A stretch of DNA of 22,351 nt from the IMG/VR virus record IMGVR_UViG_3300025769_000932, positions 1-22,351 of that record; one strand, 5' to 3'. Position numbers and translations under genes: made by a program. The notes below the pieces were generated by a model. It was not told where the DNA came from and did not search any database. It saw nothing but the letters and a program-made list of their open reading frames with translations. Shown in pieces: positions 1,349-15,900 of this stretch. The stretch comes from a virus. How positions within the stretch are numbered: position 1 is the first letter of the stretch; every line of letters begins with the position of its first letter.

Positions 1349-1639
1349 ATGGATAACAGAAGGAATAACGGAGGACATTCTACTAAGGGAAAAGCTGGTA
1401 GAAAACCTAAAGACGAGGAGAATAGAATACGGGATTTAATGTCGCCTTATTCGTTAGATGCTATACAATGCTTGGCTAATATAGTTATATCGGAGAAGGC
1501 TAGAGATAGTGATAAAATTAGTGCAGCTAAGTTGATAATCGAGTACACTTATGGTAAGCCTAAAGAGACTATCGATAATAACATTACGGTATCCGAAACT
1601 AATATAAAAGAGTTATTAAGCTTTGGTGGATCTAAATGA
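1349..1639 (+). CDS. terS: Probable terminase small subunit
   Basis: A 96-residue protein directly upstream of, and overlapping by about 16 bases, the large terminase gene. The N-terminus is basic and Gly-rich (NGGHSTKGKAGRKPKDEE), followed from about residue 28 by a helical domain (SPYSLDAIQCLANIVISEKA) and a segment KISAAKLIIEYTYGKPKE, a pattern typical of small terminase-like proteins, where the C-terminal part contacts the large subunit. It would recognise phage DNA for packaging. The call rests on size, position and the AAKxxxEYxYGKP signature. It is short for the family, so the DNA-binding part may be reduced. Confidence 0.7.
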   Translation: MDNRRNNGGHSTKGKAGRKPKDEENRIRDLMSPYSLDAIQCLANIVISEKARDSDKISAAKLIIEYTYGKPKETIDNNITVSETNIKELLSFGGSK

Positions 1640-2831
1640 TAAGTATAGAGCATTTGGAAGTGATAGTAGGTACTTTATTGTTACTGGTGGCCGTGGTTCT
1701 GGTAAATCATTCTCGATCAACATACTTCTACTATTTCTTACTTACGAGAGAGGACATATTATTCTTTTCACTCGCTATACTCTTACTTCTGCTCATGTAT
1801 CTATCATACCAGAATTTCTAGAGAAGATAGATATACTTGATAAACATAGTGACTTTCACGTTACTAAAGACGAGATAGTAAACCTAAAAACAGGGAGTAA
1901 GATATTATTTAAGGGTATCAAAACAAGTTCTGGAACTCAGACGGCTAATCTTAAATCACTAGCTGGAGTTACAACATGGGTATTAGATGAAGCTGAGGAG
2001 TTAACCGATGAAGATACTTTCGATAAGATAGATTATTCTATCCGTTCTAAGGACAAAGATAATAGGGTTGTGTTGATACTTAACCCTGCTACTAAAGAAC
2101 ACTTTATCTATCAAAGGTTCTTTGAATCGAAAGGAGTAGAGGCAGGAAGTAATATAGTCAAGGGAGATACTACGTATATTCATACTACCTACTTAGATAA
2201 TATAGATAATCTTTCTGAATCGTTTCTAACACAAATAGAGACAATGAAAATACACCGACCAGAGAAGTATAAACATACTATTCTAGGAGGGTGGCTCGAT
2301 AAAGCCGAGGGGGTTATATACACCAATTGGTCGATAGGTAAATTTAATGAAGATATACCTAGCGTATTTGGACAAGATTATGGATTTAGTAACGATCCAA
2401 GCACTTTAGTCGAAACTGCAATAGATAAATCTAAGAAGATTATTTACGCAAGGTTACACGTATATCAACAAGGGTTAACTACTTCTCAACTTGCTAATCT
2501 TAATATCCGATTTGCTGGCAAAAAGTTAATAGTAGCAGATAATGCTGAGCCTAGATTGATAGCTGAACTTTCTAACTTAGGATGTAATGTTGCACCTTGT
2601 GTTAAGTACAAAATAAACGAAGGGATAGCTACTATACTAGATTACGATTTGGTAATAGACGAGGAGTCAATAGACTTGATTAAGGAATTGAACAACTATT
2701 GTTGGCTGGAGCGTAAGAGTGAAACTCCAATCGATAAATACAATCATGCTTTGGATGCTCTTAGATATGCGGTTACTTATCAACTTGAGAATGCACATAA
2801 AGGAAACTATAAAATAAGCTTCATTCGTTAA
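1623..2831 (+). CDS. terL: Terminase large subunit (packaging ATPase and nuclease)
   Basis: A 402-residue PBSX/Terminase_3-type protein that pumps DNA into the prohead and cuts concatemers. Walker A is TGGRGSGKS at 21-29; Walker B is WVLDEAEE with Asp122/Glu123; a motif III-like ILNPAT is near 152-157. The RNase H-like nuclease domain starts near residue 248, with acidic residues Asp252 (GQDYGFSND), Asp306 (IVADNAEP) and Asp378 (HALDALRYA). All expected residues are present, so it looks functional. No ATG is available near the N-terminus: the start is TTG at 1623 or GTG at 1626, both inside the small-subunit gene, implying coupled translation. Confidence 0.93.
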   Translation: MVDLNDKYRAFGSDSRYFIVTGGRGSGKSFSINILLLFLTYERGHIILFTRYTLTSAHVSIIPEFLEKIDILDKHSDFHVTKDEIVNLKTGSKILFKGIKTSSGTQTANLKSLAGVTTWVLDEAEELTDEDTFDKIDYSIRSKDKDNRVVLILNPATKEHFIYQRFFESKGVEAGSNIVKGDTTYIHTTYLDNIDNLSESFLTQIETMKIHRPEKYKHTILGGWLDKAEGVIYTNWSIGKFNEDIPSVFGQDYGFSNDPSTLVETAIDKSKKIIYARLHVYQQGLTTSQLANLNIRFAGKKLIVADNAEPRLIAELSNLGCNVAPCVKYKINEGIATILDYDLVIDEESIDLIKELNNYCWLERKSETPIDKYNHALDALRYAVTYQLENAHKGNYKISFIR

Positions 2832-2865: not shown

Positions 2866-3543
2866 ATGAAGATAGAGATTAATATTCCAGAAAGTTTAAA
2901 GGAGATAAAGCTCAAAGACTATCAGAAGTTTGTTAAGACTTGTAAAGATAGTAACGATGAGATGTTTGTAAAACAGAAGATGATAGAAATCTTTTGTGGT
3001 GTGCCTTTGCTTTCTGTTTTAAAGATGAAGTTCTCAGATGTTGAGGATATAACAAATCATCTAAACAACCTATTCACTAAACAACCTAACTTAATACGTA
3101 AATTCGATATAGTTGGCTTAGAGTTTGGATTTATTCCTAACCTAGAGAAGATAACGTTTGCTGAGTATATTGACTTAGATACTTATATTGCTGACTTCGA
3201 TAATATGCACAAAGCAATGGCAGTATTATACAGACCAATAGTAGACAAACGAAAAGATACTTACTCTATTGAGGAGTACACTGGATCGGATGCGTACTCC
3301 GAGATAATGGAGCATGTTAGTATGGAGGTTGTGATAGGAGCAAGGGTTTTTTTTTGGAATTTAAGCAACGAGTTATTGACGGCTATCCCAACTTATTTGG
3401 AGAAACAGGTGAGCAAAATGAATACTCGGAAAGCTACCAATTTGGGAGCAAATGGGGATGGTATCAATCAATCTATTCACTTGCTAAAGGAGACGTTACA
3501 AGACTTGATGAAGTTACAGAGGTTGGATTATTTAAAGCTTTAA
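2866..3543 (+). CDS. Tail-assembly-chaperone-like protein, frame-0 product
   Basis: The 225-residue unshifted product. Residues 1-163 look like a soluble mixed fold (MKIEINIPESLKEIKLKDYQ at the start, acidic middle) and end at a run of nine T residues at 3347-3355 coding for Val-Phe-Phe-Trp. After the run, frame 0 stays open for another 62 codons and ends 60 bases before the next gene. The -1 frame instead stays open to an 8-base overlap with the next gene and looks more protein-like. A short and a shifted product from one gene, upstream of the tape measure, is the hallmark of tail assembly chaperones (lambda gpG/gpGT). No family is recognised from the sequence itself, so the role is inferred. 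A sequencing error in the T-run is the main alternative. Confidence 0.65.
   Translation: MKIEINIPESLKEIKLKDYQKFVKTCKDSNDEMFVKQKMIEIFCGVPLLSVLKMKFSDVEDITNHLNNLFTKQPNLIRKFDIVGLEFGFIPNLEKITFAEYIDLDTYIADFDNMHKAMAVLYRPIVDKRKDTYSIEEYTGSDAYSEIMEHVSMEVVIGARVFFWNLSNELLTAIPTYLEKQVSKMNTRKATNLGANGDGINQSIHLLKETLQDLMKLQRLDYLKL
3348..3354 (+). other. Slippery heptamer T TTT TTT for -1 frameshifting
   Basis: In the frame of the gene starting at 2866 the run reads GTT TTT TTT TGG, placing a T TTT TTT heptamer at 3348-3354. Both tRNAs could re-pair perfectly after a -1 slip, and decoding would resume at TTG 3354. The fused product would be 163 + 85 = 248 residues. I saw no obvious strong downstream pseudoknot by eye. 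Confidence 0.55.
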
Positions 3544-3611
3544 CGATGCTTAGTTTTGAGAAAGAAAAACACGATATAGAAATGATGCAAATACAAAGAC
3601 GAAATGGCTAA
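3354..3611 (+). CDS. -1 frame extension of the chaperone-like gene
   Basis: Eighty-five codons, entered from TTG 3354 after the slip rather than by independent initiation. It contains an aromatic-rich core, FGSKWGWYQSIYSLAKGD at about residues 31-48, then TRLDEVTEVGLFKALTMLSFEKEKHDIEMM. This resembles a compact domain I associate with Bacteroidetes phage virion proteins (WGWYxxIYxLAxGDxxxLDEVTE). It ends in TAA overlapping the ATG of the next gene by eight bases, the tight packing seen elsewhere here, whereas the frame-0 stop leaves a gap. Both points suggest this frame is translated. It cannot be an ordinary gene: there is no ATG near its 5' end. Confidence 0.6.
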   Translation: MEFKQRVIDGYPNLFGETGEQNEYSESYQFGSKWGWYQSIYSLAKGDVTRLDEVTEVGLFKALTMLSFEKEKHDIEMMQIQRRNG

Positions 3612-4062
3612 CTATTACGATATAACTAAACAAATACACGATTTCTTTATAACTAATCCGATGTGTAATTACGTTACTAAAGGTAGCCTTGACGAGCTTA
3701 TGAATGCAAAGCATGACATGTACCCATTGGCACACGTTCAGATTAACAACGCCACTATACAAGGTCATTCTATTACTTATAACGTATCTGTATCTGTAAT
3801 GGACTTGCTAGATTATTCTAAGGAGCAACCAGCAGATATTTATGTAGGGAATAGTAATGTAGATGACGTTCTAAACGCAAGCCTATTGTTACTAAACAAC
3901 TTCCACGAGCACTGCATTAGAGGTAATATGTGGGATGATGACTATCGTATCGAGGATAGCTCTGGAAGCATAGAGTTCTTTGAGGAACGGTTCATAGATA
4001 ATGTGGCTGGAGCTACTATGACTTTTGATTTGGTAACAGGAAATACAATGACTAAATGCTAG
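3604..4062 (+). CDS. Neck or tail-completion-like structural protein
   Basis: A 152-residue soluble protein, probably alpha/beta. Its N-terminal half (ITKQIHDFFITNPMCNYVTKGSLD) precedes a beta-rich core with PLAHVQINNATIQGHSITYNVSVSVMD and the acidic segment KEQPADIYVGNSNVDDVLNASLLLL. I recall similar proteins in Bacteroidetes phages beside HK97 gp10-like genes, where tail-terminator and head-completion proteins are usually encoded. The role is inferred from position and fold pattern, not from a recognised motif. It overlaps the -1 extension upstream by eight bases and the next gene by seven, so it belongs to the same transcript. Confidence 0.5.
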   Translation: MANYYDITKQIHDFFITNPMCNYVTKGSLDELMNAKHDMYPLAHVQINNATIQGHSITYNVSVSVMDLLDYSKEQPADIYVGNSNVDDVLNASLLLLNNFHEHCIRGNMWDDDYRIEDSSGSIEFFEERFIDNVAGATMTFDLVTGNTMTKC

Positions 4063-7974: not shown

Positions 7975-8123
7975 TAAAGCATATACTAGCATTGCTTAAG
8001 TTAAGTGATTTTTACGGAGTATCCGAGAACGTAGATATAGCTAAAGGAAAATACGAGTATAATAATTCGTTTAGACAAACAACAAAACAAGCGAAAAGGA
8101 AGTTATATAGTTATGGCAATTAA
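7971..8123 (+). CDS. Small 50-residue protein before the tape measure
   Basis: A 50-codon ORF starts inside the stop of the preceding gene (ATGA) and overlaps the tape measure start by 11 bases. It begins MIKHILALLKLSDFYGVSEN and ends in a basic segment, FRQTTKQAKRKLYSYGN. Coupling at both ends and a sensible composition (hydrophobic N-terminal helix, basic C-terminus) support a real gene that accounts for the otherwise empty 138 bases before the tape measure. Its last codons coincide with a copy of the repeated AGTTATATA motif. A role in tail assembly is possible from position; none is recognised. Confidence 0.6.
   Translation: MIKHILALLKLSDFYGVSENVDIAKGKYEYNNSFRQTTKQAKRKLYSYGN
8078..8109 (+). 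promoter_or_regulatory. Composite motif copy 3 (candidate late promoter)
   Basis: AACAACAAAAC at 8078-8088, 12 bases, then AGTTATATA at 8101-8109, three bases before the ATG at 8113. It lies inside the 3' end of the 50-residue ORF yet keeps both blocks and the spacing. Confidence 0.5.
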
Positions 8124-10053
8124 AAAGGTTATAGAGGTAGAAATAAAGGATAATGCTGTTGCAACACAGGATCATTTCAACGATTTACGTAATGAAATAA
8201 AAAAAACAGAAAAAGAAGTTGAAGAACTATCTAAGACCTACGGGACTAATTCCAAAGAGGTAAAGGAGAGCGTTAAACAACTTAACAAGCTACAAGATGC
8301 GTATACCAACTTATCAAAAGAGGCTACCGATTTAAACGCAACTTTTGAGGACATATACGGTGATATGAAGCCACTTACGGCTCGTATGGGTGAGGCTGAG
8401 GATAGATTATATGAACTTGCTTTGGCTGGTAAAACAGGCACTCAAGAGTATAGAGATTTACTTGAAGCGACTGGTAATTACAAGCGAGTGCAACAGCAAA
8501 CAGATTTAGTAGTTGATGCTGCTGCTACAACTCTAGGGCAAAAACTAGGTGGAGCGTTACAAGGCGCAACGTCTTCCTTTGCTGCCGTACAGGGGGCTAT
8601 GGCTACAATGGGAGTGGAGAGCGAGAAAATAAACGAGGCATTACTGAAAGTACAGGGCGCTATGGCACTTAGCGAGGGTGTACGTGGTGTTCGTGAGGCT
8701 ATTCCGATATTTACCTTGTTAGGTACAACAATAAAAACAAAGGTAGTTACTGCATTTAGTACCTTAAAAGGTGCAATAATAGCAACTGGAATAGGTGCTC
8801 TAGTTGTGGCTATTGGCTTTGCTATCCAAGCATGGATTGAATATAATAATAGCATAGAGGAGGCAGCCGAAAAACAAGCTAAATTAAACGAAGAGCAGAA
8901 AAAATCCTTAGAGATTATAAACGAAATAATAAATGCCAGCGAACAATTAAGGAATAAAAAACAAGGGGGACTAAACGACTTAAAAAGGGAGATAGATTTA
9001 CTTAAAGCTAAGGGTGCAACTGAGAAAGAAATATTCGAAAAGTCAAAAGAAATCTTAAAGCAAGAGTTATTTAATCAACAGGTTAGATACGAAACCCTGA
9101 AAATGGGAAGTGCCTTAGAGCGTGAGGAGGCAAGGAAAGTTAAAGAGGAGATAAAGAACACTAGAAATGATATTCGAGTTCTAGAGGCTGAGTTTTATAG
9201 AGGTAGAAGGGAAAAAAGGGAAGAGGATAACAAGGACGCAAGAGAGAAAGCAAAACAAAGAAGGTTAGACGAATTAAAAGCTATTGAAGAGGCAAACAAT
9301 CAAAGAATAGCTTTAGAGGATGCGCAATTCAAACTATTACAAGAGGCTACATATTCCAATAAAGAATTGGAGATTGCAAGACTTGTAGAGGCTTATGACC
9401 AAAAGTTCGCTATTGCTAATGGAAATGCTGAGTTAGAGAAAGCATTAATGGAAAAGCAAAAGCAAGAGCTTGCAGAGATAGAGGGCAGATACGCCACTCA
9501 TTCCGTAGAAACAACTCAAGCTACGGAAGAAAAGAAAGCCGATATTATTAAAGCTACGGAAGAGCAAAAATATCAGGCAGTACAAGATGGACTAACAAGC
9601 ATTGCTAACCTATCTTATTTATTCGCTAATAAGTCCGAAAAGCAACAACGTAGAGCTTTTGAGATACAGAAGGCAGCTAACATCTCTAGCACATTAATAG
9701 ATACTTATCGTAGTGCTACTGGGGCCTTTAAATCTCTTGCTGATATTCCTGTTGTCGGTCCAGTGTTAGGTGGGTTCGCTGCTGCCGCTGCAATTACCAA
9801 CGGACTTGCAAACGTAAAGAGAATACAATCGCAACAATTCGGAGGAGGCGACACTGGTGGGGGATCAACTCCTTCAATCGGGGGTATTAGTGGTGGCGAA
9901 TCAAGAGCACCGCAATTCAACATTGTTGGTCAAGGAGGGGTGGGACAAGCACAATTTTTAGAGCAAAAACCTGTACAAGCATTCGTTGTTAGTGGGGAGG
10001 TAACAAGTCAACAGGCTTTAGATAGAAACAGATTAAGAAATGCAACTTTATAA
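8113..10053 (+). CDS. Tape measure protein
   Basis: A 646-residue protein that sets tail length and passes through the tail tube. It has a long coiled-coil N-terminus (about 20-90), a hydrophobic segment at about 218-244 (AIIATGIGALVVAIGFAIQAW), extended charged helices (about 245-480), a second hydrophobic Gly/Ala segment at about 545-566 (VVGPVLGGFAAAAAITNG), a Gly-rich linker (about 575-600) and a short polar end. This is the standard tape-measure plan. At about 1.5 angstroms per residue it predicts a tail roughly 95-100 nm long. A near repeat of ATEEKKADIIKATEEQK occurs near 470-490. It heads a block that continues into the prohead protease two bases downstream. Confidence 0.85.
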   Translation: MAIKKVIEVEIKDNAVATQDHFNDLRNEIKKTEKEVEELSKTYGTNSKEVKESVKQLNKLQDAYTNLSKEATDLNATFEDIYGDMKPLTARMGEAEDRLYELALAGKTGTQEYRDLLEATGNYKRVQQQTDLVVDAAATTLGQKLGGALQGATSSFAAVQGAMATMGVESEKINEALLKVQGAMALSEGVRGVREAIPIFTLLGTTIKTKVVTAFSTLKGAIIATGIGALVVAIGFAIQAWIEYNNSIEEAAEKQAKLNEEQKKSLEIINEIINASEQLRNKKQGGLNDLKREIDLLKAKGATEKEIFEKSKEILKQELFNQQVRYETLKMGSALEREEARKVKEEIKNTRNDIRVLEAEFYRGRREKREEDNKDAREKAKQRRLDELKAIEEANNQRIALEDAQFKLLQEATYSNKELEIARLVEAYDQKFAIANGNAELEKALMEKQKQELAEIEGRYATHSVETTQATEEKKADIIKATEEQKYQAVQDGLTSIANLSYLFANKSEKQQRRAFEIQKAANISSTLIDTYRSATGAFKSLADIPVVGPVLGGFAAAAAITNGLANVKRIQSQQFGGGDTGGGSTPSIGGISGGESRAPQFNIVGQGGVGQAQFLEQKPVQAFVVSGEVTSQQALDRNRLRNATL

Positions 10054-14964: not shown

Positions 14965-15438
14965 TCAGAACGTAACCTTAGTCCCATCTAAATTAGTTGC
15001 AGGTTCTAAAAAGTCATTCATTTCAAATGGCACAAAATGAACTCCCATTTTGCCACCTTCTATATTTGTATTACGGTAAACAGTACCCAACTTTAGATTT
15101 TTATAAGCCAAGTAAGATTTATCAAATTCTCCTTCCTTTTGAAATCTATGCAAGTCTTTTGCATCCTCTAAAGTTGGTTCACGGTTTAGTATTTGTCTCA
15201 ACACTTCTTTTATTACATTTTCCTCCGCATCCACAAAGTTCTTAGTAATTTGTGCCATCACATCCGATAAAGCACAGTTACTAACATCACCTACACGCAA
15301 TTTTTTTAACTCAGTTAGTTCTTCGCTTATCAGTTCTATCAAAACTCCGAATCGTTGTTTATAATTATCTGGGCAAGTTTCCCAATATGTTATGTCTTCT
15401 AAAACATCTTTCAAGTATTCTAAATCTTCTTTCTTCAT
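14965..15438 (-). CDS. Minus-strand accessory protein, 157 residues
   Basis: I do not recognise this protein. It is acidic and mostly helical in its first 115 residues (KKEDLEYLKDVLEDITYWE; LIELISEELTELKKL; NVIKEVLRQILNREPTLEDA), then has a short beta-rich end (LKLGTVYRNTNIEGGKMGVHFVPFEMNDF). No membrane segment, enzyme signature or DNA-binding motif is evident. It is the first gene of a leftward pair inserted between the tail tube and portal blocks, with a plausible host-type promoter of its own at 15470-15503. A gene read against the virion genes from a host promoter is typical of a moron, meaning an accessory gene that may be expressed outside the late programme; lysogenic expression or phage exclusion is possible but unproven. 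Confidence 0.7.
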   Translation of the reverse strand: MKKEDLEYLKDVLEDITYWETCPDNYKQRFGVLIELISEELTELKKLRVGDVSNCALSDVMAQITKNFVDAEENVIKEVLRQILNREPTLEDAKDLHRFQKEGEFDKSYLAYKNLKLGTVYRNTNIEGGKMGVHFVPFEMNDFLEPATNLDGTKVTF

Positions 15439-15503: not shown

Positions 15504-15525
15504 TGCAAAAAAAAAAAGTTATAAT
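15495..15525 (+). promoter_or_regulatory. Composite motif copy 5 (candidate late promoter)
   Basis: AACAACAAATG at 15495-15505, 11 bases of A-rich DNA, then AGTTATAAT at 15517-15525, a two-base departure from the other copies. The ATG is at 15529. A terminator and two opposing genes separate this block from upstream rightward transcription, so the portal genes need a promoter here, and this is the only candidate I see. Confidence 0.5.
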
Positions 15526-15528
15526 AGT

Positions 15529-15900
15529 ATGACTATCTTAACAACAGATACAGGAGTGCAGAATATAACGGTTAAGCCTAGAGCAATAGGTAATAACTTA
15601 GCTAATAAGGTTTTTTTAATAGACGAAGAAACCAACGTGACTACTTCCTATAATGTTAGTGGCTACACGGAGTACGACTTATATGATAACATAAACGCTT
15701 CTTTCCCTGATTTAATAGAAGGAAGAAGGTATAAAATGCTTATATGTAGAGATGTGATTACAGATGTTAGATACTACGGGATAGCAATGTGCACGGATCA
15801 AGTTAGTACTTCTTTAGGCTTCAATGATTATAGAGATTATACGATTAATGAAGGACAATACACAGAGAACACAACAACCAACGATTTTATATTATTATGA
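15529..15900 (+). CDS. Small virion-associated protein, 123 residues
   Basis: I do not recognise a named family. The protein is soluble and beta-rich: strand-like segments NITVKPRAIGNN, KVFLIDEETNVTTSYNVSGY and RRYKMLICRDVITDVRYYGIAMCT are followed by an acidic, Tyr/Asn-rich end (INEGQYTENTTTND). The segment SGYTEYDLYDNINASFPDLIEGRRYKM is well ordered in appearance. Its stop overlaps the portal start as ATGA, so the two are translated together, suggesting a portal-associated, head-completion or minor virion role. This is positional inference. Confidence 0.55.
   Translation: MTILTTDTGVQNITVKPRAIGNNLANKVFLIDEETNVTTSYNVSGYTEYDLYDNINASFPDLIEGRRYKMLICRDVITDVRYYGIAMCTDQVSTSLGFNDYRDYTINEGQYTENTTTNDFILL

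Follow-up and report, generated by a model that had tools for sequence, protein, structure and literature searches.

Directly downstream of the terminase gene in a virus record of 22,351 bases (the window, by which we mean the whole stretch of DNA that was analysed) lies a gene whose sequence, compared with those of its relatives, marks it as a programmed frameshift gene that tailed phages of Bacteroidota have conserved. It is built around a run of nine T, at which one N-terminal domain would be joined to either of two C-termini. The most far-reaching interpretation, to which we assign a probability of about 0.45, is that a large group of Bacteroidota phages relies on RNA polymerase slippage at this run, rather than on ribosomal frameshifting, to fix the proportion of two tail-assembly proteins, and that slippage exchanges one selected C-terminus for another instead of only adding one. 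The assignment to phages of Bacteroidota is based on the cultured phages P12024S and P12024L and on contigs of Flavobacteriaceae. No earlier report of a frameshift in this gene was found in the literature covered by our search, from which subscription journals are mostly absent.

Results

The frame-0 ORF (2866..3543, plus strand) encodes 225 aa and matches phrog_32199 (E 5.8e-12). Its product consists of an N domain (approximately residues 1-152), a long helix spanning the slip site and, at the C-terminus, a short helix. The slip site is the nine-T run at 3347..3355, the first T of which occupies codon position 2 of frame 0, and the heptamer T TTT TTT pointed out in the earlier note can be read directly from the sequence, in frame 0, at 3348..3354. 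Any run of nine or more T holds a frame-0 T TTT TTT whatever its register. From the run onwards the -1 frame is open for 85 codons (3354..3611, plus strand), as had been noted and as the ORF list confirms; the C domain that it encodes would, when fused to the N part, give a protein of 248 aa. The eight-base overlap with the next ORF (3604..4062, plus strand; phrog_30964, function unknown) is likewise real. Frame 0 continues for 62 residues beyond the second TTT, such that 3355..3543 is read in both frames, and a TAA stop in the +1 frame lies at 3362..3364, six bases past the run. The predicted tryptic peptides that span the junction in the window phage are VFFWNLSNELLTAIPTYLEK for frame 0 and VFFLEFK for the -1 product.

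The gene for the terminase large subunit (1623..2831, plus strand) lies directly upstream, and the same order of terminase and frameshift gene is found in P12024S and in prophage G218. Two nested products encoded upstream of a tape measure gene had been proposed for this locus. At the sequence level the predicted products are nested, sharing their N domain, and the gene for the tail length tape measure protein (8113..10053, plus strand; phrog_9483, E 1.5e-17) is indeed downstream, but four ORFs intervene between the end of the frameshift gene at 3611 and its start at 8113 (the spacing is equal in prophage G218). Moreover, frame 0 has a selected C-terminus of its own (see below), and the pair is therefore not merely a short product and an extended one.

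The wider surroundings have several features of their own. The modules between 1349 and 17615 stand in an unusual order (terminase, frameshift gene, tape measure, protease, capsid, portal), and prophage L253 has a gene order and gene sizes similar to those of this region. A Sigma-70 region 2-like protein (PF04542, E 2e-5) is encoded at 422-892, a few genes before the terminase, with a similarly placed Sigma-70-like counterpart in P12024S (P12024S_33); a phage transcription factor of this kind could bear on polymerase slippage. Further downstream, an ORF of 157 aa without a Pfam match (14965-15438) lies on the minus strand amid plus-strand structural genes, and an eleven-A run (15507-15517) sits between ORFs, just upstream of the one at 15529.

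The queries used to collect relatives were the N part and various forms of the -1 part, and none of them requires the T run. The viral sets comprised 7, 80, 60, 80 and 2 loci, one of the sets of 80 being the best 80 of at least 598 IMG/VR stretches coding for relatives of the -1 part and the other the best 80 of 122; three genome-contig loci and a few whole-genome loci were added. Across the 230 loci of the resulting census the junction run is T9 in 219 and T10 in 11 and is shorter in none, and in all 230 frame 0 and the -1 frame stand in the same relation as in the window. Removal of near-copies left 81 loci (T9 in 74, T10 in 7). Many census loci are close kin, most come from metagenomes and at least two entries are repeats (L036 and L150 are one contig; L159 and L161 are apparently one). 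The census omits L107, where the junction is too close to the contig end, L154, L156 and L157, whose genomes were already counted, and L160 and L246-L252; of these, L160 and L246 seem to be matches by chance. A T9 run was also seen in L002 and L004-L008, which lie outside the census. An order-1 Markov model predicts 1.6 A/T runs of at least nine per window of such composition, so that T9 alone would be unremarkable by chance, and what chance does not account for is its retention in 230 of 230 loci.

The phrog_32199 profile matches all 76 of the 76 frame-0 proteins compared with it, with E values no higher than 0.01. The family includes the cultured Nonlabens phages P12024S (gp38-gp39) and P12024L (gp40-gp41), which share the T9 junction and the place after the terminase and differ in that the gene is annotated as two separate hypothetical proteins and in a shorter frame-0 tail of 24 codons. 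The run is also conserved in L158, a locus on a chromosome contig of 3.9 Mb, for which a search with L158 as query found no viral relatives. Genomes in the family and phylum of G001 hold few relatives (A1, 3/397 and 2/395; A2, 1/395 and 5/397), and one relative, L092, belongs to a bin that carries the label Epsilonproteobacteria.

In a directed search for shorter runs, 2.9 million viral contigs were scanned for six to eight T in a set sequence context, one that is matched by 87 of 248 loci with a gap of up to four allowed; the scope of the scan was that context alone, with runs uninterrupted to the seventh base. It returned four places, of which one, L252, is a relative with T8 (near 1789-1817, minus strand). 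There the N frame stops directly after the run and both C-terminal frames are off by one base, as if one T had been lost, which may reflect either an assembly error or a natural off-variant. A different irregularity is seen in L062 (junction near 1618): among the non-redundant relatives it alone has a frame-0 stop as early as six codons past the run.

The length of the run is conserved independently of how it is read. Codon position 2 holds the first T in 200 loci, whereas 27 have it at position 1 and 3 at position 3. An N-domain tree of 81 rows implies at least eight changes of register, and its well-supported branches force at least four changes for register 1. As far as can be told from comparison of the sequences, the codon register is thus mobile but the length of the run is retained. 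For T TTT TTT to be in frame, eight Ts are needed in register 2, nine in register 1 and seven in register 3, and nine therefore exceeds the need in 203 loci. In register 2 the codon that follows the second TTT begins with T in 200 of 200 loci, even though its amino acid is variously Y, S, W, L, F or C, and in register 1 it begins with a base other than T in 26 of 27. Judged by codon usage, a run of at least nine would be expected in 25% of cases given the heptamer alone. Phenylalanine is encoded by TTC in 144 of 654 N-domain codons, yet TTC never occurs in the run. Because the census loci are related by kinship and dual coding limits the sites, constraining the flanks of the run so that they are not free to vary, we give no overall probability for its conservation.

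Beyond the run the same DNA appears to be selected in both frames. When the -1 frame was resampled synonymously, frame 0 remained open for at least 20 codons in 33% of draws, compared with 80 of the 81 loci observed, and a frame-0 stop within the first 20 codons after the anchor was seen in 1 of 80 loci against an expected 49. Conservation of frame 0 over the first seven codons is 1.90 versus an expected -0.26 (sd 0.075, 200 draws); over the next seven it is 1.02 versus 0.71 (sd 0.07), a modest excess. The strongest conserved columns of the frame-0 tail are L..EL, and conserved residues farther along (a GxG motif) may be by-products of a KWGWY motif in the -1 frame. Tail length ranges from 23 codons (L168) to 66 (L158) and is 60 in most of the L100-L144 group. 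On this evidence the overlap is dual-coded, with one N domain and two alternative C-termini that are both under selection.

The AlphaFold2 model of the frame-0 protein (pLDDT 87.5) has a helix at residues 153-192 that spans the slip point (residues 162-163), and the -1 domain is modelled as all helix (pLDDT 78). The frame-0 model had no significant match among PDB folds, the VIA-align rows being short helical stretches only; the -1 model was compared with the viral structure library alone. In this library single viral proteins of 226-267 residues, including A0A516L5A8, A0A6J5N0W0, A0A516L611 and A0A6J7WDG4, match both models, with weak matches (E 0.01 and up) for the -1 model. This agreement suggests that in-frame fusions may exist. 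Named tail chaperones appeared in the library at ranks 49-50 with E values of 0.7-0.9, which are meaningless, and were discarded. A distant relative in genome G120 (L247) is a single ORF of 290 aa whose N part matches (hhalign 91%, E 1e-6), and hhalign of its C part against A4 was not significant, which is why a likeness of the C parts judged by eye is given no weight. The Pfam chaperone family PF10109 remains below threshold (E 0.013, a score of 16 bits where 25 are required) and matches 2 of 76 members at E 0.1.

Discussion

The earlier note suspected a programmed -1 frameshift and named the retention of both frames and of a slippery run among homologues as one of the points to check. Both are retained throughout the census, which lends the proposal strong support, and the -1 product is very probably made. 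The mechanism is less settled, and we lean somewhat towards slippage that is mainly transcriptional. Standard expression of the nine-T mRNA would yield the 225-aa protein, in which the N domain is followed by the helical C-terminus of frame 0. Slippage of RNA polymerase on T9 would leave some of the transcripts with one extra U (or two fewer), bringing the -1 frame into register; these would encode the 248-aa protein, whose N domain is unchanged but whose helical C domain is another one. A transcript that deviates by the other amount would meet a +1-frame stop right past the run. According to Baranov et al., 2005 (PMC1088944), a 9A or 9T run very likely serves for transcriptional slippage when homologues keep its length, and A/T runs are avoided from length nine upward in a large share of genomes. 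The conserved run of nine seen here fits the signature as described there, which favours slippage by RNA polymerase and leaves the ribosome as the main rival.

Two further observations bear on this choice. Stops in the +1 frame within eight bases past the run are found in 211 of 230 loci (72 of the 81 non-redundant ones) compared with a background of 29%, although some of the excess may come from dual coding of the TTTAR stretch. Furthermore, folding of single strands from the 81 loci, pseudoknots aside, revealed no excess structure of the kind expected of a stimulatory stem-loop beside the run (mean z of +0.13 downstream and +0.12 upstream, with -0.35 and -0.45 for control stretches). A conserved length with a mobile register, no flanking structure and nearby +1 stops together favour polymerase slippage over a heptamer used by the ribosome only.

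Phage tail chaperone genes are the textbook case of ribosomal frameshifting, and a stimulatory RNA structure is not always needed for a -1 shift. A programmed -1 shift of the ribosome on U UUU UUU, like that of lambda G/GT, is one rival, which we consider rather unlikely here. All census loci have the heptamer in frame, albeit by necessity, and PMC5009743 gives the -1 ribosomal shift as the documented mechanism for this class of gene. In register 1, nine T is also the ribosomal minimum. Extra Ts could in principle be accommodated, by offering more slip positions or through a 3′ context effect on the ribosome that favours the additional T. The difficulty is that eight Ts in register 2 or seven in register 3 would suffice, and runs that short are found in 0 of 200 and 0 of 3 loci, respectively. 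In addition, the last slip codon is never TTC, and the folding analysis, pseudoknots aside, found the site without flanking RNA structure. A combination, in which polymerase and ribosome both slip on the same run, strikes us as less probable still: the U9-U10 run holds both kinds of site, and the ribosome could slip here too since T TTT TTT is in frame in any run of nine, but its share has no positive evidence.

The idea that the -1 domain forms an independent gene, translated from a start of its own, is highly improbable. It takes its support from P12024S, where gp39 is annotated from an internal ATG; however, that ATG sits within the conserved domain, and a separate gene would leave the conservation of the run without a reason. 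The earlier statement that the -1 ORF has no start codon of its own holds for most relatives, as the -1 frame near the junction lacks ATG and GTG in 69 of 81 loci and lacks ATG, GTG and TTG in 51 of 81, but it needs qualification for the window, where a TTG inside the run is the only listed start. Least probable of all is a homopolymer sequencing or assembly error in a gene that is simply continuous, since, error-prone as homopolymers are and much as the T8 of L252 resembles a lost T, the run is T9 or T10 in 230 of 230 loci (including cultured P12024S and the 3.9-Mb contig L158), T9 recurs in L002 with an identical frame-0 protein, and both frames are selected past the run, unlike in a continuous gene; as a general explanation it is excluded.

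What the two proteins do is best approached by comparison with lambda, where the two products, present at about 30:1, connect the tape measure with the tail tube (PMC5009743). Our preferred reading shares with lambda G/GT a common N domain to which a -1 shift gives a second C domain, here known from sequence, in a tailed-phage gene upstream of the tape measure. It departs from lambda in its all-T run of conserved length and mobile register, in a frame-0 C-terminus of some 23-66 codons that is itself selected, in the four genes that stand between it and the tape measure gene of the window, and in the lack of a significant profile match to known chaperone families. In lambda-type G/GT pairs the N part binds the tape measure, the C part binds the tail tube and the proteins are absent from the virion. 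The two-product layout within a structural gene block, as in lambda, is the reason why we regard a role in tail assembly as the likelier one: the proteins would most likely be a tail assembly chaperone pair with one member in excess, like lambda gpG/gpGT. The chaperone identity proposed earlier draws on this layout and on the sub-threshold match to PF10109; adjacency to the tape measure gene does not support it.

Genes with transcriptional slippage at 9A or 9T runs include Shigella mxiE, Thermus dnaX and IS elements (PMC1088944 and PMC5009743). As these sources describe them, they resemble the present gene in having a homopolymer run of nine that is kept among homologues; mxiE also resembles it in the fusion of two ORFs, and dnaX in a stop in another frame near the run. 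Unlike those examples, the gene described here is a phage gene, apparently for assembly, in which both frames past the run are selected. The same DNA is selected in both reading frames over some tens of codons, and the current annotations of P12024S and P12024L miss the fusion protein. If slippage by RNA polymerase does operate on this run, the ratio of two products would be settable at a level of gene expression other than the ribosome, and the gene would provide a natural probe of polymerase slippage in Bacteroidota.
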